A stretch of DNA of 64,000 bases, taken from positions 1-64,000 of the forward strand of contig JANXZX010000050.1 of NCBI GenBank assembly GCA_025355325.1. Direction: 5' to 3'. The notes under the pieces were generated by a model that saw nothing but the letters and a program-made list of their open reading frames with translations, was not told the origin of the DNA and did not search any database. Source of the DNA: Geobacteraceae bacterium. GTDB taxonomy: Bacteria; Desulfobacterota; Desulfuromonadia; Geobacterales; Pseudopelobacteraceae. A program made the translations under genes and the position numbers. Within the stretch, counting starts at the first letter, position 1; each line of letters starts with the position of its first letter. This document shows, in pieces, positions 3,325-62,300 of this stretch.

Positions 3325-5841
3325 CTACCCCTTCGGCTTCAATCTCCGCGTCGGCACCGCACTCCAGGGATCATCAGGCCAGGGGTGCTTCGGATAGCGC
3401 CCTTTCATTTCTTTTTTCACCTGTTGATACGAACCATCCCAGAATCCCCGTAAATCCCGTGTCACCTGAATCGGCCTTCCGGCGGGAGAAAGCAGATGCA
3501 GCAATACCGGAACCCTGCCGCTGCACACCGTCGGTCCTACAGCCAAGCCGAATAGTTCTTGAAGCTTCACCGCCAATACCGGAATTTCTCCTGAATAATC
3601 GATTCTGATTCGCGACCCGCTCGGCACGGCCAGATGCGTCGGAGCCATTTCATCCAGCTCGCGCTGCTGCCGATAGTCAAGGCTTTGCCTCAGGATATCC
3701 GCGATATCAAGCTGGGCAATTTTTCTGGCGGTATTGACACCCTTAAGGTGCGGTGCCAGCCATTTCTCAAGCGTTCCAAGCAGTGCGGCATCCGAAACAT
3801 CCGGCCACTCCCGTTCCGGAAAAGAGGAGTGTGTCACCTGCAGGCGTCCCTGCAGCTGGCGAACCGCTTCATTCATCGTCAGCAGCGCCATGCCCGACGC
3901 CCGAACGGCTCCAATCACGGCTGGGACCGCCTGTGCCGCAGATGGAACGACAGTTTCTGCGGAAAGCTGAATACTCCCCAGACTCTCCATCCGCCGGGCA
4001 ATCACGCGCTGTTCACGTTCATCCCAGTTCACCAGGATTTCGCGCCGAATATGACCTGAAAGCTCTTCGCGAATAACGGACTCAGGTATTTCGGCGGCAA
4101 GGTGAATGACCGCTTCAGCCTGGTTTCTGGCATCCAGCGCGGGAGCGACAATATACTCGGCCGCTCTGACTGCGCTCCGCTCCGAAATTCTTGCGCCACG
4201 CCCGCTGGCCAGCAGGTAACCGCCTCCGGATGACCTGCGCCGTGCCAAGCGGTCCGGATAGGCCGCCAGCAGCAACCGGGAGATTCGATCATCGTCGCAG
4301 TCCCATAACTCCTCACCGGCGGGAACAGCCATAAATCGCCGTAACTGATCGGTAACCCGCTGGACATTTTTCAATGCCGCCTGATCCATTCTTTGATCAT
4401 TCCGCCCCGATGTCCGCCAGCTTTTCACGGCCTCCAGACGATCCATAATATCCGAGCTGCTTACCTGGGGCAACGCGCCACCTGCAGATGATCGAAACAG
4501 ATCCCGCTCCGAAAGCAGCGCCGCAACCAGACACCCCACACCTGCACAGCCAAGTTCTCCGGAGCGGAGCAGCAGGCGACCAATACGCGGATGAAGCGGC
4601 ATCCGGACGACGTCACGACCCCGCTTCGTGATCCGGCCTGAATCATCAAACAGATCAAGCTCCTCCAGCAGGCGCCGGGCCGATTCCAGAGCACTGGCGG
4701 GCGGCGCGTCCAACCAGGAAAGCTCCAGCGGATCTGTGACACCCCAGGCTGACAATTCCAGCAGGAGTTGTGACAGATCGGTAACAGTGATTTCCGGCGG
4801 CGTATGCGGTGCCATCGCGTGCAGCGTGTGCTGGGAAAACAGACGGAAGCAGACTCCGGGAGCGGTCCGCCCCGCTCGACCTGCGCGCTGTTCTGCCGAG
4901 GCTCGTGACTCACGCACAGTGATCAACCGGTTCAAACCATTACCCGGATCGTAGTGCAAACGCCGCGACACACCGCAATCGATAACGGTTCGTACTCCGT
5001 CGATGGTCAAACTGGTTTCGGCAATGCTGGTAGCCAGCACTATTTTACGCTGCGCCCCCGGCTGAATGACCTTCTGCTGCTCGGCAATCGGCAAATCGCC
5101 ATACAGCTGGCAAATCATGACATTGCGTTGAACAGCCGATTCCATCAACAGAGCGGCGCATGCGCGGATTTCACCGGAACCGGGCAGAAACGCCAGAATA
5201 TCCCCCTCCGTCTCATTCAACGCCCGCATAACGGTAGAAGCCATCCTCTGGGATAGGCGCATGTGCCCTGTGTCATCAAGGTATTTCATCTCAACGGAAA
5301 ACGCCCGCCCCGACGAACTGATTACCGGAGCGTTGTCAAGCAAACGGGAGAGCGGCTCCAGATCGAGCGTTGCCGACATGACCATGATTTTGAGATCAGC
5401 CCGCAGTTGCTGCACTTCACGACAGAGAGCCAGACCGAGATCAGCATGGATGCTCCGCTCATGAAACTCGTCGAAAATCACCAGCGCAACACCGGCAAGC
5501 CCGGGATCGCTCTGAATCCGGCGGGTCAGTATTCCTTCGGTGACTACTTCAATACGCGTGGTTTTCGAGGTACAGCTGTCAAAGCGAATTGAATAGCCGA
5601 CTGTCTGGCCTGCCTCTTCGCCGAGACAGCGCGCCATCCAGCGGGCTGCCGACACTGCAGCGATCCGGCGAGGCTCCAGCATGATGATCCGACCTACTTC
5701 TGGAGGAATTATGTCAAGGAGAGCCAACGGAACGCGGGTTGTTTTACCCGCGCCGGGGGGAGCATGCAGAATTATGTTCGGATGAGTAGTGAAGGACTCA
5801 AGCAGGACGGGGAGGATTTCGTCAATGGGAAGTTTGGTCAT
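3325..5841 (-). CDS. hrpB: ATP-dependent helicase HrpB (DEAH family)
   Basis: HAPPGAGKTTRVPLAL, DEFHERSIHADLGLAL, SATLD, EQRAGRAGRTAPG motifs; HrpB C-terminal region. Confidence 0.95.
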   Translation of the reverse strand: MTKLPIDEILPVLLESFTTHPNIILHAPPGAGKTTRVPLALLDIIPPEVGRIIMLEPRRIAAVSAARWMARCLGEEAGQTVGYSIRFDSCTSKTTRIEVVTEGILTRRIQSDPGLAGVALVIFDEFHERSIHADLGLALCREVQQLRADLKIMVMSATLDLEPLSRLLDNAPVISSSGRAFSVEMKYLDDTGHMRLSQRMASTVMRALNETEGDILAFLPGSGEIRACAALLMESAVQRNVMICQLYGDLPIAEQQKVIQPGAQRKIVLATSIAETSLTIDGVRTVIDCGVSRRLHYDPGNGLNRLITVRESRASAEQRAGRAGRTAPGVCFRLFSQHTLHAMAPHTPPEITVTDLSQLLLELSAWGVTDPLELSWLDAPPASALESARRLLEELDLFDDSGRITKRGRDVVRMPLHPRIGRLLLRSGELGCAGVGCLVAALLSERDLFRSSAGGALPQVSSSDIMDRLEAVKSWRTSGRNDQRMDQAALKNVQRVTDQLRRFMAVPAGEELWDCDDDRISRLLLAAYPDRLARRRSSGGGYLLASGRGARISERSAVRAAEYIVAPALDARNQAEAVIHLAAEIPESVIREELSGHIRREILVNWDEREQRVIARRMESLGSIQLSAETVVPSAAQAVPAVIGAVRASGMALLTMNEAVRQLQGRLQVTHSSFPEREWPDVSDAALLGTLEKWLAPHLKGVNTARKIAQLDIADILRQSLDYRQQRELDEMAPTHLAVPSGSRIRIDYSGEIPVLAVKLQELFGLAVGPTVCSGRVPVLLHLLSPAGRPIQVTRDLRGFWDGSYQQVKKEMKGRYPKHPWPDDPWSAVPTRRLKPKG

Positions 5842-5883
5842 AGTTTGTCTAATGGAAGAAAAGTGTTATCAACTCGACCGGTG

Positions 5884-6297
5884 CTACTGAACACTTCCCG
5901 CCTGATCAGCAACCCTCTTCAACAACGCCTTGTCAAATGACCGCACCGTATGTCCTTCAATCGAAGTCATCGTAATCAGAAGACAATCAACAGGATCCAG
6001 CATGGTTTCGGCGAAAAGAGTAAGTGCTCTGGTCAGCACCTCCCGGTTGAGATTGACTACCCCCTTGTACAGCAGGATTCCATGAAGGCAATGTGCCGCC
6101 TCGGCACGCGGGACTTTATAATGCTTTGTCAGTACGTACAGACACTCCACCAGAACGGATTCGGCGATCAGAGCAACTTCCTTACCAATACGCACATTTT
6201 CAAAATAAAGTGAGGCTTCCGCAAAGTGAGATTCATTATCACGCAGCAGATACCTTAGGATAAAGTTGGTATCAGGAAGGGTTGCCCGTTTTTTCAT
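5884..6297 (-). CDS. PIN-domain RNase, VapC-like toxin
   Basis: TLPDTNFILRYLLRDN, ...DPVDCLLITMT...VRSFDKALLKR; PIN-domain acidic residues; overlaps upstream AbrB-like gene. Confidence 0.85.
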   Translation of the reverse strand: MKKRATLPDTNFILRYLLRDNESHFAEASLYFENVRIGKEVALIAESVLVECLYVLTKHYKVPRAEAAHCLHGILLYKGVVNLNREVLTRALTLFAETMLDPVDCLLITMTSIEGHTVRSFDKALLKRVADQAGSVQ

Positions 6298-6511
6298 CGG
6301 CAACCTCCTTCCACACGTTATTCCTTATTTCATCGAAGGATTCCGATCTCCGGCTATATGCCGCAAGGGCCCCGCCAACGCTCTGTACGGGACGCAGTAT
6401 CACCAGATTCCCCTGCACCTCTATGTCAACTGTCGAGGAGTTGAGAGCCTTCCGGGCAGCTCTTGGAATCGTTATCTGACCTTTTGACGTTATTGTTGCT
6501 GAGAATGCCAT
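6272..6511 (-). CDS. AbrB/SpoVT-like antitoxin (VapB/MazE-type DNA-binding)
   Basis: MAFSATITSKGQITIPRAARKALN; start at ATG 6511 (annotated 6529 start is TTG). Confidence 0.85.
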   Translation of the reverse strand: MAFSATITSKGQITIPRAARKALNSSTVDIEVQGNLVILRPVQSVGGALAAYSRRSESFDEIRNNVWKEVADEKTGNPS

Positions 6512-6537
6512 AGCATAATCTCCATACAATCGTATAT

Positions 6538-6564
6538 TGCATTACTAATTTGTATTGTAATGCA
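6538..6564. promoter_or_regulatory. Candidate operator of the vapBC-like locus
   Basis: TGCATTAC-N11-GTAATGCA perfect 8-bp inverted repeat just upstream of the antitoxin start. Confidence 0.5.
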
Positions 6565-6645
6565 CTACTTTAATATCAGTCAAGTTTAAATAACCGGCAG
6601 ATTACAAAGGCAAATGGCAAATTACATTGCAACCACTACAGACCA

Positions 6646-6719
6646 AACCCCTCTAAATCTCCCCTTAACAGGGGAGACTTCAAGGCTTCCCCCCTGTTAA
6701 GGGGGGACTGAGGGGGGTT
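6646..6719. repeat. Dispersed inverted repeat overlapping the 3' end of larE
   Basis: AACCCCTCTAAATCTCCCCTTAACAGGGGAGA ... TTCCCCCCTGTTAAGGGGGGACTGAGGGGGGTT. Confidence 0.75.
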
Positions 6720-7558
6720 GATTTTAGGATGTTATTATCTTGCCGTTCGCCCGACGCTTCTTCATTCATCGCGCCGGTCCGATAACCCTGTAGATCAAGT
6801 GCGACGTAGGTAAACCCGGTCGCTTTCACTGATGTGACCACCTCTTGTCGCAGAACTCCGGTTGCACGTTCAAACTCCTGTTCGCCAAGTTCAATCCTGG
6901 CCACACTGCCGTGGTAGCGCACCCGCAGCGTCCGAAAGCCGAGCCCACGCAGAGATTCTTCCGCCAATCCGACCTGACCGACCCGCTCGGGAGTAATGGC
7001 GGTTCCGTACGGAAAACGGCTGGAAAGGCAGGCGAAAGCAGGCTTATCCCAGGTTGAAAGTCCCATTTTCTTCGAAAGATCACGTATATCCTGTTTGGTA
7101 AAACCGGCTTCTTCAAGCGGGCTCCGCACCCGCAGTTCTTCCGCCGCAATCCGGCCCGGGCGATGATCACCGGCATCATCGACATTGGTGCCGTCAAGCA
7201 CGTATCCCAATCCCTCCTGATCGGCAATTGCCCGCAGTTTTCCGAACAGTTCCTTCTTGCAGTAATAGCAGCGGTTACGGGGATTGTCGCGAAACTCGGG
7301 GATGTCAAGTTCCTCTGAAACAATTACCAGATGGCGTCCACCGATTTGCTCTGCCAGCTCGCGCGCTTCATTCAATTCGCGTTCGGGATAGGTCTTTGAA
7401 GTCGCCGTAACCGCCAGCACCCGATTTACCAACACTTCAGCCGCCACCGCAAAAAGCAGTGTCGAATCGACTCCGCCGGAAAAACCGATTACGCAACCGC
7501 CCATATCAGCCAGAATAATGCGAAGTTTTTTTGTTTTATTGTTCAGCTCGGAATCCAT
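6680..7558 (-). CDS. larE: LarE-family ATP-dependent sacrificial sulfur transferase (PP-loop)
   Basis: VIGFSGGVDSTLLFAVA PP-loop, NRCYYCKKELFGKL, DGTNVDDAGDHRPGRIAAEELRVRSPL, CLSSRFPYGT. Confidence 0.9.
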   Translation of the reverse strand: MDSELNNKTKKLRIILADMGGCVIGFSGGVDSTLLFAVAAEVLVNRVLAVTATSKTYPERELNEARELAEQIGGRHLVIVSEELDIPEFRDNPRNRCYYCKKELFGKLRAIADQEGLGYVLDGTNVDDAGDHRPGRIAAEELRVRSPLEEAGFTKQDIRDLSKKMGLSTWDKPAFACLSSRFPYGTAITPERVGQVGLAEESLRGLGFRTLRVRYHGSVARIELGEQEFERATGVLRQEVVTSVKATGFTYVALDLQGYRTGAMNEEASGERQDNNILKSTPLSPPLTGGKP

Positions 7559-7581
7559 AATCAGATACTCCACAATTACAA

Positions 7582-9096
7582 TTACAGCATGTAATCAGTT
7601 GAAAGGAAATGGGATTTCCTCTCACGGACGATGCTGGTGATAATTTCCCGGTTTGCCTCGGTTTCGCGGGCCGCCACGACAATTCTGATGGAAAATATCC
7701 GCAACGCATCGGCAACGGATTGAGTTCCGTCGGCTGAGTTTTTACGGCCGTTGAACGGAAAACTGTCCGGACTTCGCTGGCATTGGCTGTTGATATTGAT
7801 GCGGCAGACCTGATTCACCAGAGCATCAACCAGTTGGGCCAGCAAATCGGAATTTTGCCCGAAGACGCTCGCCTGCTGGCCGTAGTTTGAGGCCACGATG
7901 TAATCAATCGGTTCACAAATATCGTCGAACGGCACAACCGGAATAACCGGCCCGAATTGTTCTTCGTCGTAAATCCGCATTGAAGGAGTGACAGGGTACA
8001 ATAGCGCCGGGTAAAAGAACGACGCACTGCCGTTGCCGCCACCAGGGTTCACAACCTGCGCACCCAATGCCTCAGCATCACGGACCAAACCATCCAGATA
8101 CTCCGGTTTTTCCGGCTCAGGCAGCGGCGTAATGGTGACGCCCGGTTCCCACGGCATGCCGCATTTAAGTGCGCTGATAGCGGCGGACATCCGCTTTAGA
8201 AAGTCCTCAACAATTGTGCGGTGAACAAATATCATTTTCAACGCGGTGCAGCGCTGGCCGTTGAACGTCAAGCTGCCTGAAATACATTCGGCAGCCGCCA
8301 ATTCAAGGTCAGCGTCAGGAAGGATGACCGCCGGATTTTTGGCATCCAGCCCAAGTACACAGCGGAGACGATGAGGACGGGGATGAACTGCCCGCAGGGC
8401 ATCAGCAACCCGGTGAGTTCCGATAAAACCGAGCACATCAACTTTTCCGGATGCCATCAATGGCGGAACAACCGCTTCGCCATCACCGTAGACAGTGTTG
8501 ACGACACCAGCCGGGAACGAGTCGCGCAGCGCCATCAGCAGCGGCTGAAAGATCAGAACGCCGAATCGGGGCGGTTTCAGCAAGATGGTATTACCCATAA
8601 CCAGCGCCGGAATCATGGTGGTAAAAGTTTCGTACAACGGAAAATTATACGGCCCCATGCAGAGAACCACACCCAGCGGAGCACGGCGAATCTGGCCGAT
8701 AATCCCCTGTTGAATGACAAAACGGGATGAGACCCTGTCCAGTTCTTTCAGCGCTTCCAGCGTGTCGCGGATATAGGAGACCGTCCGGTCGAACTCACGT
8801 TCCGCCTCACGAAGCGATTTGCCGATTTCCCACTGTAAAAGATTGACAATCTCCGTACGCTTCAGCAGCATGGCAGCAGTAAAGCGCTGTACGCTCTGGA
8901 TCCGCTCGCCCACCGACATGGTCGGCCAGACACCGCGGCCGTTTGAATAAGCCTGCACCGCGACTTCAAGCGCTTCAAGTGCCGCCGCTTCTGTCAGCAA
9001 GGGCGCTTCACCGATCAATTTCTGCTGATTTCCCTCTGAGGAACGAATCAAGACCGGTGAGCGGACCTCCTGCATAGCCCCGTTCCAACTCCTCAA
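7582..9096 (-). CDS. NADP-dependent aldehyde dehydrogenase, GapN-like glyceraldehyde-3-phosphate dehydrogenase
   Basis: GPYNFPLYETFTTMIPAL, FNGQRCTALKMIFV, INSQCQRSPDSFPFNGRKNSADGTQSV typical of GapN-type ALDH. Confidence 0.88.
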   Translation of the reverse strand: MRSWNGAMQEVRSPVLIRSSEGNQQKLIGEAPLLTEAAALEALEVAVQAYSNGRGVWPTMSVGERIQSVQRFTAAMLLKRTEIVNLLQWEIGKSLREAEREFDRTVSYIRDTLEALKELDRVSSRFVIQQGIIGQIRRAPLGVVLCMGPYNFPLYETFTTMIPALVMGNTILLKPPRFGVLIFQPLLMALRDSFPAGVVNTVYGDGEAVVPPLMASGKVDVLGFIGTHRVADALRAVHPRPHRLRCVLGLDAKNPAVILPDADLELAAAECISGSLTFNGQRCTALKMIFVHRTIVEDFLKRMSAAISALKCGMPWEPGVTITPLPEPEKPEYLDGLVRDAEALGAQVVNPGGGNGSASFFYPALLYPVTPSMRIYDEEQFGPVIPVVPFDDICEPIDYIVASNYGQQASVFGQNSDLLAQLVDALVNQVCRININSQCQRSPDSFPFNGRKNSADGTQSVADALRIFSIRIVVAARETEANREIITSIVRERKSHFLSTDYML

Positions 9097-9215
9097 CTCA
9101 CCCTGTACAAGGTAGTAGTCCTGCCGTAACGGCTCCCGGATCCGGCATTGCTCGGGGACCTGTTCTGCTTTGTACTATTAATAAAGGATTACCCTGAGAT
9201 CTCAGGGTGGACCGA

Positions 9216-9482
9216 TTACAGATTCTTGAGGTTCTTTCCGGCAGAGAATTTACCGCTTTTTGATGCGGGGATATTCAGTTCTGCGCCGGTCTGCGGGTTG
9301 CGGCCTTTACGGGCGGCCCGCTGTGAAACTTCGAAGGTGCCGAAGCCGGGAAAAGTAACTTTGTCTCCCGCTTTCAACAGGTCCGTCGTTACCTTCAAAA
9401 ACGCATCGACAGTTTCAGCTGCAACCGTTTTTGGAACTTCCAATTCCTCTGCTACTTTTGCTACGAATTCTGCTTTAGTCAT
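9216..9482 (-). CDS. HU-family DNA-binding protein
   Basis: MTKAEFVAKVAEELEV...GFGTFEVSQRAARKGRNPQTGAELNIPASKSGKFSAGKNLK. Confidence 0.96.
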   Translation of the reverse strand: MTKAEFVAKVAEELEVPKTVAAETVDAFLKVTTDLLKAGDKVTFPGFGTFEVSQRAARKGRNPQTGAELNIPASKSGKFSAGKNLKNL

Positions 9483-9746
9483 GAATTTCTCCTTGCTGTT
9501 AAGATATGGCGAATGACAGTTGATCACCAGCCTGTATGGGGTAATAGCACATCTTACCGGAAAAGTCAGGTGAGAATGTGCATGTTCAAGCTCCGTTCAT
9601 AATTTGTTTGTTCTTTGCGATGCAGTCTTGTATACCTTTGTTAAATCCATCACATGCATTTTTTCTTTTTCTCCGGAATTCGCTGAAAAATTTATCCGTC
9701 ATTTTAGCGTGTTTCATCATCGATATTCGTAGAGTGGAGAGTATCC

Positions 9747-11018
9747 ATGCAGATTGAAGCCTTCAACGCCATCAGGGAGAATATTCAGACTTTTCTCGGA
9801 GGGGCCAGAGTAGATCTCTTGTCAAGCCAGGAAGGTGAAAACAGAGAAGATGGAATTTGTGAAGCAGTCAACATTGAAGATCAGCCCTATCTGTTTACCG
9901 CTCATCGGGAACATCTCCAGTTTACCCGAGCGGAACGGGCCTTTTGCAAGGAACTGTTGACCGCTTTTGCAGCCCTGTACAGCGGATTCCGCCAGCAGGG
10001 ATATGCAGCCCATTTCAGAACTGCCCTGCTCGCTTCGATCATGGATATTACCGTGGCTCGTTCGCTTCGCGGCGATCACAACAAAGGCTTCTGGCCGATC
10101 CAGGAATTGATTCAGCTCCTGAAAAACCTTTCTTATCAGCGTTATGAGGGGACTCCAGCCACCACCGGCTTTATCGTTTACCGGACGACTCAGCCAAACT
10201 TTTTGCATCTCATGCGGCAGAGAAAACATGCCCTGTTCCCTCTTAAGCCGCCCCAGAGCATATCAGCATCTTTTTTTGCCAACCCTCTGACATACCGTTA
10301 TGTAGATGCGACAAATCTGTTTTTCGTTGCCAATATCCAGATGCAGGTAACCGGAGTCGTAAGGATCGGCAACTACGCAGATCAAACCAATGTTGAACGT
10401 TTGACCCAGCGGGAGCTCTTCTCTATTGTCAATCGCTCGGGTGATGGCGCCTTCGCAGTTACGGTAAACGAAGCATCCGAGATTGAAGTATTAACCAGTC
10501 CTGCCAAGTTGCTGATCCGCCGCAAAGGCGGTTGGGCCATCTTTGATCCTGAAATATTTCGTTCGTTTCTGGCTGACAGTATGGAACGTTCGGCGGCCGA
10601 TGATCTGCTCTGGACAGCTTATGCCCTCTCCAAAGGGCGCCATGGCACTGTTGTGTTAATCTTCAACAAAAGTGCTCGTAAACTGGCATCACTGAAAAAA
10701 GGGTCAGTGGGTGGGGATGATCCTGTCGGCCGCCTTCTTGTGGATGGGGTGAAGGGACGAACTATCACGGAATTAAAGCAGGCCGGAACAATCCACAGAA
10801 TCCTCTCCTCGGACGGTTTGACAGTTTTCAACAGGCGCGGAAAACTGGTCGATACCGGCTTCATAATCGATACGTCCCATGCCCGGGAAATTGTCACCGG
10901 CGGCGGCAGAACCACGGCAGCAAGTGCCGCCTCATTTTTCGGCAAGGTGATCAAGGTCTCACAGGATGGCCCGATCGAGCTGTACCAGGAAGGAAAACTG
11001 ATTTATCGCTTCGGATAA
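9747..11018 (+). CDS. DisA_N/diadenylate cyclase-like protein with N-terminal probable sensor region (DACNV-like)
   Basis: C-terminal DGLTVFNRRGKLVDTGFIID ... GGGRTTAASAASFFGKVIKVSQDGPIELYQEGKL aligns by eye with the DAC DGA ... GTRHRAA ... VVSEE-G-IS pattern. Confidence 0.65.
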   Translation: MQIEAFNAIRENIQTFLGGARVDLLSSQEGENREDGICEAVNIEDQPYLFTAHREHLQFTRAERAFCKELLTAFAALYSGFRQQGYAAHFRTALLASIMDITVARSLRGDHNKGFWPIQELIQLLKNLSYQRYEGTPATTGFIVYRTTQPNFLHLMRQRKHALFPLKPPQSISASFFANPLTYRYVDATNLFFVANIQMQVTGVVRIGNYADQTNVERLTQRELFSIVNRSGDGAFAVTVNEASEIEVLTSPAKLLIRRKGGWAIFDPEIFRSFLADSMERSAADDLLWTAYALSKGRHGTVVLIFNKSARKLASLKKGSVGGDDPVGRLLVDGVKGRTITELKQAGTIHRILSSDGLTVFNRRGKLVDTGFIIDTSHAREIVTGGGRTTAASAASFFGKVIKVSQDGPIELYQEGKLIYRFG

Positions 11019-60369: not shown

Positions 60370-62300
60370 ATCGGGTAGGAGGCGAAATTTCTTTCGCCGT
60401 CCTCCCACACCACCGTGCGTACGGTTCCGTACACGGCGGTTCATGAAGTGTGTTGAAGTCGGTGGTGCTGGCTCATAAGTGATACCAACCCCAGTTTGTC
60501 GAAGTAGGATTTCGGAACAGCTTTATTCATATGCGAGGCCCCTGCATTCCACCAGGGGCCTCGGCCGTTTGTGGCCGACCGCCATGCCGTGGTTTCCGAT
60601 AATCCCCGGCGCATCAAGTTCTTTGCTCGCGTGTAGGAGCGCTTCCACTGCTTCCAGAGTATGCAACGCAGTTTCCGCCTCAGCCATCCGTCCAGTTCAT
60701 CGAAAATTCCTTTTACTTCCGCATAACGGAAATAAATCATCCAACCCCTTAATTTCGGGATGACTTCTTTGATGGTCGTCTGGATGTTCTTACCCCTGCC
60801 CCGCCTGAAGATCATCTTGAGGTTGGCCTTGAGTCTGGCAACCGCTTTCTTCGCCACGGTAAGTCGTGGCTTGTGATGCCAGGTCATGCTGTAGCTCAGA
60901 AACGACCTTTTCCACGGACGGTCTACCGCGCTTTTGGCTTGGTTGACCTTGAGCTTGAGCCGTTCGGACAGGTAGCTGGTGATGGAATCCATAACTCTTT
61001 CGCCGCTTGTCCGGGTTGCAACGTATATGTTGCAGTCGTCGGCGTAGCGACAGAAGCTGTGGCCCCTTCTTTCCAGTTCCTTGTCCAGTTCGTCGAGGAG
61101 GATGTTGGACAGCAATGGCGAGAGCGGCCCGCCTTGCGGCGTCCCCTCTGTTCGTGCTGTGGTTAATCCTCCTTCGAGTATTCCTGCCTTGAGGTAGCTA
61201 TCGATAAGAGACAGCACCTGTTTGTCTCCGACTTTGCGCTTCACCAGTGACATAAGAGTGTCGTGGTGGACGCGGTCAAAGAATTTCTCAAGGTCAATAT
61301 CGACCACCCACCTGAGGCTATTCGCTACATGTTTCTGTGCTGCTTTGACCGCTTGATGGGCACTCCTTCCGGGACGAAACCCGTAGGAGCTTTCCGAGAA
61401 ACCAGGATCGAATAACGGGCTTAAAACCTGCTGCACCGCCTGCTGAATGAGTCGGTCAAGGACAGTTGGGATACCCAGCATCCGTGTGCCACCTCCCGGT
61501 TTGGGAATTTCTACTTTCAGTACCGGTTGCGGGAGGTATTTCCCCGTCAGCAGTTCTTCTTTGATGCGCGCCCATTCTTCCTGTAGGTGGCCTTTCAGGG
61601 CCGTTACCGGCATCTCATCGACACCGGACGCGCCTTTGTTGGATACTACACGAGAGTACGCCGCCATCATGTTGCCGCGACTGACTATCTTCTCCATCAG
61701 TAACGTTGCCGCTTCCGGCCAGTGAGTTGCTTTCCTTCCCGTGACGTTTGCCGCACCGCCCCCATACTCTCGCGATTTCTGACCGCTACCCTCCGGGGTG
61801 GCACCGAGCATCTCAACCCGGTCTTCTGCTGCTCCTGTCGTCATCTAAATTCAAGGCTCCTGTCCGATTACTTCATGTTCAGCCCTTTGTCGGGTGGTTA
61901 ATTCGACTCATATGGCTTCTGCTTACTTCTGAAAACCCATCCCGACGCCTCTCGACGCCGGTAGCACAAAGGCAGGTTTACAGACCTCCCAGGGTAATTC
62001 ACGTGACCTTCATCCCATATACCCGCCGCATCTACAGCCACATCCTCCTGAATGGTTATCGGGCTTTGAAGACATTTGCCTTCTCGCCCGGATATGACTG
62101 CCTCATATGCGATTCCTGTCCGTCGGGCCAGGACTTTGCCTGCGGCTTCCTTCAGATTCCGTCTCACGACGGACACCCTTGCCGTCCGGCTATCGGTTCC
62201 CACCATCAGGGTACGAAGAGGACTTACACCTCCAAGTCACCAATCAGCCACCATAGCTGATTGGATGGCGCTTACGCGCCACGCGCCATGCCTGGCGCAC
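60370..62300 (-). mobile_element. Group II intron, class C-like
   Basis: Minus strand starts GTGCGCCAGGCATGGCG at 62300 directly after a terminator hairpin; ends ...domain V-like GAACCGCCGTGTACGGAACCGTACGCACGGTGGTGTGGGAGGACGG then CTCCTACCCGAT at 60370; encodes RT/maturase. Confidence 0.9.
60441..61844 (-). CDS. ltrA: Group II intron-encoded reverse transcriptase/maturase
   Basis: [12 protein letters not shown] catalytic motif, [32 protein letters not shown] maturase region [38 protein letters not shown]; no evident C-terminal HNH endonuclease. Confidence 0.97.

Follow-up and report, generated by a model that had tools for sequence, protein, structure and literature searches.

Diadenylate cyclases (DACs) have been described as enzymes that make mainly c-di-AMP. 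In the stretch of DNA analysed here (the window, 64,000 nucleotides from a Geobacteraceae bacterium), one gene encodes a protein whose C-terminal part resembles these enzymes and whose counterparts of their active-site motifs are altered. This raises the question of whether the protein is an ordinary c-di-AMP synthase, an enzyme with another product, a nucleotide sensor that has lost catalysis, or not a functional protein at all. The gene and its two parts are as follows:

9747..11018, + strand: gene for the DAC-like protein, 423 aa, starting with ATG (ORF listing; the start Met is kept in relatives, and dN/dS is 0.06)
9747..10586, + strand: N-terminal region of ~280 residues, family-specific, with no Pfam match and with homology to group II N-termini (see below)
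10587..11015, + strand: C-terminal DAC-fold domain, residues 281-423 (AlphaFold2 model and Foldseek)

The ORF at 9747-11018 is a real, conserved gene. Comparison with its nearest relative, which is 90% identical, gave a dN/dS of ~0.06 (0.058/0.916), and the gene is under strong purifying selection. Relatives were detected across Geobacterales, with 77 of the 141 genomes positive (54 among the 103 of good quality); most of them are 65-90% identical to the window protein, and the mean column identity across the 27 aligned family members is 80%. The possibility of a pseudogene or a chance resemblance, in favour of which a merely sub-threshold Pfam score (E 0.039) could be cited, is contradicted by the low dN/dS, the conservation of the family and the fold search described below, and we regard it as negligible. 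One relative (G379:C6:142882-144159) contains seven in-frame TGA codons, so that either its gene has decayed or the assembly is faulty there.

The Pfam DAC model (DisA_N, PF02457) matched residues 294-418 with 14 bits (E 0.039), below its gathering cut-off of 27 bits. No NCBIfam match was found for the window protein, and PDB sequence searches with it returned nothing relevant. AlphaFold2 modelling of residues 268-423 on a shallow alignment of 27 close relatives gave a best model with a pLDDT of 75 and a pTM of 0.76, two of the five models being poor (50 and 47), and the full-length protein with 27 close relatives reached a pLDDT of 42.7. When the domain model was compared with the PDB by Foldseek, all of the 50 best matches were DAC domains (E 1.8e-5 to 4.4e-4, probability 1.00), among them B. 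cereus 2fb5, the DisA proteins of T. maritima and M. tuberculosis, CdaA, CdaM and CdaS. The TM-scores against PDB DACs (0.5-0.63) imply that the domain is a diverged member of the DAC fold. At the profile level, a diverse family alignment (A4) reached the DacZ-like DACs of ~300 aa (hhalign Prob 93%, E 3.6e-7). The profile of the window clade alone was not significant against the CdaA or DacZ sets (hhalign, E 0.05-0.07), so the sequence link to DACs needs diverse relatives or structure. The model and the profile comparison through intermediates thus support a DAC fold for the C-terminal ~145 residues, which bears out what had been recognized by eye in the C-terminal third. No match to the domain model was found in a viral structure library, and scans of viral contigs detected no relatives of the protein.

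Three segments of this domain correspond to the active-site motifs of known DACs:

10812..10820, + strand: DGL motif (canonical DGA), D356-G357-L358, with D356 and G357 invariant in the alignment
10899..10922, + strand: GGGRTTAA motif (canonical GTRHRAA), in which R388 is the first Arg of RHR
10953..10970, + strand: KVSQDG segment (canonical VVSEE), in which K403 and S405 do not vary across the family

Canonical DACs of the same and related genomes (35 sequences) uniformly carry DGA, G-[T/A/S]-RH-[R/A]-AA and a hydrophobic-Ser-Glu segment. In the window clade the corresponding motifs are DG[L/M/I/V], GGRT[T/A]AA and [I/F]KVS[Q/E]DG, and the window protein reads G385-G-G-R388-T389-T390-A-A-S at the RHR site. 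Since D356, G357, G385-G387, R388, T389, A391 and A392 are invariant in the 27 aligned members, and in view of the dN/dS of 0.06, DGL and GGGRTTAA are not the result of chance or decay. Both alterations are present as the first-pass annotation described them, although its wording that RHR has become RTT should be refined: of the three residues, the first Arg persists while His and the second Arg have disappeared. The clade has retained the metal-binding/catalytic Asp, the first Arg and the Ser, whereas the Thr before RHR (now Gly), the His and the second Arg have been replaced. Asp and the first Arg are 32 residues apart, as are D171 and R203 of B. subtilis CdaA, and both are present in every member except for one outgroup relative that has Lys for Arg. 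Every family member has a Lys two residues ahead of the conserved Ser (K403), which none of the canonical DACs compared contains; if this segment is a beta strand, the Lys would point to the Ser side and may replace a lost positive charge. Of the DGA motif that defines DACs, Asp and Gly are present and Ala is not, and of GTRHR(A) the first Arg alone is retained (GGRTTAA); the protein should therefore not be classed among the diadenylate cyclases, even though it has the fold.

Mutational studies help to judge these changes. In Leptospira CdaA, D172A and R203A are reported to abolish activity and S222A to lower it (PMC12974146); from its spacing to D172, we take R203 to be the first Arg of RHR. 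Changing RHR to AAA abolished both ATP binding and activity of M. tuberculosis DisA, in which the glycine of DGA was dispensable (PMC3328451), and in S. aureus DacA the Thr before RHR contacts phosphate (PMC6368335). One explanation is a catalytically dead DAC-fold sensor, which would bind ATP, c-di-AMP or another nucleotide and relay its state to the N-terminus or to a partner. The loss of His, the second Arg and the preceding Thr agrees with it, as do the effect of RHR to AAA on DisA and the restriction of the DGA to DG[LMIV] change to the window clade, and there is precedent in degenerate second-messenger domains of the GGDEF and EAL types, which act as receptors (PMC7288161). However, a pure sensor would need neither the metal-binding Asp nor the essential first Arg, which are both invariant in the window clade, and an invariant Lys that shares its segment with the conserved Ser also argues against it. 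We consider such a sensor a realistic candidate at clearly less than even odds. The conserved essential Asp and Arg lean towards retained nucleotide handling; of the two candidates, an enzyme with another product is favoured over a dead-enzyme sensor.

The genome itself bears on a further explanation, that the protein is an ordinary c-di-AMP synthase which tolerates an altered motif. Two canonical DACs are encoded, one a CdaA beside folP and glmM and the other a CdaA-like protein of 471 aa whose long C-terminal extension is YbbR-like by eye. Two 7TMR-HD (PgpH-like) phosphodiesterase genes and a c-di-AMP riboswitch were also found. c-di-AMP signalling is complete without the window protein, which is thus not needed for c-di-AMP synthesis. 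The retained Asp, first Arg and Ser are compatible with an ordinary synthase, and the second Arg varies naturally in the canonical sets (some DacZ-like DACs read GARHAAA); however, His is absent from every member of the family, and with two canonical DACs already in the genome we find this explanation unlikely.

Two conserved elements were recognized ahead of the DAC-like domain:

10143..10151, + strand: Y-E-G motif, E134 being invariant in 18 diverse members (alignment A6)
10518..10547, + strand: RRKGGWAIFD segment ahead of the DAC-like domain, with W263 invariant and G261 nearly so (alignment A6)

The N-terminal ~280 residues are probably sensory or regulatory. A Pfam scan of the window protein and 17 relatives detected no N-terminal domain, DACNV (PF21751) included; PF21751 had no match in the window protein to E 10 and none anywhere in the genome. 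The same model detects 16 of 58 members of the order and so is functional in sister genomes. The proposal that this region might be DACNV was rejected, as PF21751 is silent in the 18 diverse family members and in the genome. Also rejected were a CdaA-type N-terminus (hhalign against the CdaA set, Prob 0.5%) and a DisA architecture, as the DAC-like domain ends the protein and Pfam gave no HhH match; the region is indeed unlike CdaA or DisA, as had been supposed. The window gene is missing from most genomes that encode a DACNV-DAC protein (such proteins occur in 2 of 30 genomes with the window gene and in 14 of 28 without it; Fisher p 0.0003), an anticorrelation that is not independent of phylogeny, one genus giving 11 of the 14 genomes.

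The phylogenetic tree splits the family into three groups, whose deeper order is unsure because of long branches. Group I comprises Geobacterales and a sister family and combines DG[LMIV] with GGGRTTAA. Group II, from other Desulfobacterota and plasmids, has DGA with [G/S]GGR[T/R/K/Q]AA, and group III (L061 and L155) reads GARSTAA and GKKSKAA; the change from DGA to DG[LMIV] is confined to the window clade. The plasmid members of group II, hosted by Agrobacterium vitis, Paracoccus and Vescimonas, are annotated as hypothetical proteins. Profiles of groups I and II matched over their full length (hhalign Prob 99.6%, E 1.2e-23), and so did the N-termini taken by themselves (Prob 98%, E 3e-13), with controls at 0.5%. 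Judged by these profiles the two groups are homologous end to end, and the N-terminus belongs to an undescribed architecture, common end to end to hypothetical proteins of Desulfobacterota and of plasmids.

The gene next to the window gene is the following:

9216..9527, - strand: HU-family gene, divergent from the window gene (Pfam Bac_DNA_binding, 1.5e-30)

This HU gene had been noted at first sight and is present as described. In none of the relatives' loci compared does an HU gene adjoin, so that the neighbour is incidental; HU was rejected as a functional partner, as it adjoins the gene in the window alone. No conserved operon partner of the window orthologs was found in 26 loci compared, and Rfam detected no RNA families near the window gene. 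Elsewhere in the window, a group II intron is present at 60370-62173 (- strand; Rfam group II intron matches), and a small gene pair at 5884-6529 (- strand) looks, by eye, VapBC-like, with an antitoxin of the AbrB type and a toxin of the PIN-domain type.

Other branches of the family have distinct neighbours. One Geobacterales clade is paralogous; there the gene is flanked by genes for a histidine kinase and a diguanylate cyclase of the REC-GGDEF type, with overlapping reading frames in L160-L162 (in L160 the downstream REC gene is cut short by the end of the contig). In another family, represented by four genomes (L151-L154), the DAC-like gene follows a SpoIIE-HATPase membrane phosphatase gene, which is preceded by a STAS gene in three of the four, and this conserved cluster is located just upstream of rpoB. 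Single cases include a DAC-like gene between hsdM and a second hsdM-like gene in a type I restriction operon, one beside a type II CBASS, one that is one gene away from a TIR gene, one near an integrase gene and one directly ahead of a VWA gene; these neighbourhoods could be defence-island hitch-hiking. In L061, a 404-aa gene at 4216-5430 with no Pfam match overlaps the DAC-like gene, follows a TIR gene and ends in RHAVGHG, suggestive of a HEPN-like motif.

Such contexts bring up the idea of a phage-defence component that makes or senses a nucleotide alarm signal. The distant relatives in the restriction operon, beside CBASS, one gene from TIR and near the integrase gene point in this direction. 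On the other hand, about half of Geobacterales have a window ortholog, which is chromosomal, no fixed partner emerged from the 26 loci, and PADLOC models gave no match to the window protein to E 10, nor to the relatives in L061, L150, L090 and L156. A defence role is very improbable for the window protein; what the first-pass annotation said on conflict systems applies to some distant relatives (restriction, CBASS, TIR) and not to the window clade, which has no fixed partner. We found no report of DACNV or divergent DACs in conflict systems in the open-access literature.

Our preferred reading, with a probability of about 0.5, is a stand-alone, nucleotide-binding signalling protein of the DAC fold, controlled by its N-terminus and likely catalytic, with a product other than standard c-di-AMP. 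The analysis shows a DAC fold, a conserved family with a consistent motif pattern, an architecture common to its members and signalling neighbourhoods of relatives; that the protein binds a nucleotide, catalyses a reaction, makes a particular product and is regulated by its N-terminus is inferred. The family-specific N-terminal ~280 residues would control the C-terminal domain, which would bind nucleotide through a partly rebuilt active site: Asp, the first Arg and the phosphate-side Ser are kept, a glycine-rich GGGR-T-T loop stands in place of Thr, His and the second Arg, and an extra invariant Lys is present. The domain most probably still carries out metal-dependent chemistry on nucleotides as DACs do, with a substrate or product different from that of standard c-di-AMP synthesis. 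In favour of this reading are the fold search, the profile link to DacZ-like DACs, the retained Asp and Arg, the purifying selection, the c-di-AMP system that the genome has besides, the paralogous clade beside histidine kinase and REC-GGDEF genes and the clade behind STAS and SpoIIE genes; against it are the lost His, second Arg and Thr, given that RHR to AAA kills M. tuberculosis DisA. No conserved partner gene pointing to a substrate, product or effector of the window protein was found. A wider proposal, which we put forward as tentative and doubtful, is that an undescribed and widespread family of DAC-fold enzymes (DG[A/L]...GGGRxxAA...IKVSxDG) makes a second messenger other than c-di-AMP and has been wired into two-component, partner-switching or defence modules depending on the lineage, while standing alone in Geobacterales.

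A conserved DAC-fold family with a consistently rebuilt active site, existing beside canonical DACs in one genome, is a candidate for a new nucleotide signal or receptor, and in relatives the DAC-like gene shares operons with genes for histidine kinases and diguanylate cyclases, for SpoIIE phosphatases or for restriction. Compared with canonical DACs (CdaA, DisA, CdaS and CdaM), the window protein has the same fold and retains Asp-Gly, Ser and the first of the two Arg in RHR, but it falls under the Pfam cut-off, reads DGL, has lost the Thr, His and second Arg of GTRHR, and carries an extra invariant Lys and an unrelated N-terminus of ~280 aa. The DacZ-like DACs of ~300 aa (L139-L149) are the closest canonical DACs by profile (Prob 93%); they share the C-terminal placement of the DAC domain, and some also lack the second Arg (GARHAAA), whereas they keep DGA and RH and have an N-terminus not common to the window protein. 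The DACNV-DAC proteins of sister Geobacterales are similar in length (441-456 aa), have a C-terminal DAC domain and contain an S[QH]D segment; however, they carry DACNV together with canonical DGA and GTRHRAA, and the window protein has neither. In one genome (G095), a PRTase-DAC fusion (L156) adjoins a type II-A retron pair, which consists of a nucleoside deoxyribosyltransferase-like effector and a reverse transcriptase; fusion and retron pair occupy 5428-7182, 7452-8018 and 8021-9502 of the locus. Like the window protein, this fusion has a C-terminal DAC domain with an altered motif (GGSRKETA), but it scores above the Pfam DAC cut-off, has a phosphoribosyltransferase N-terminus and lies beside a type II-A retron.
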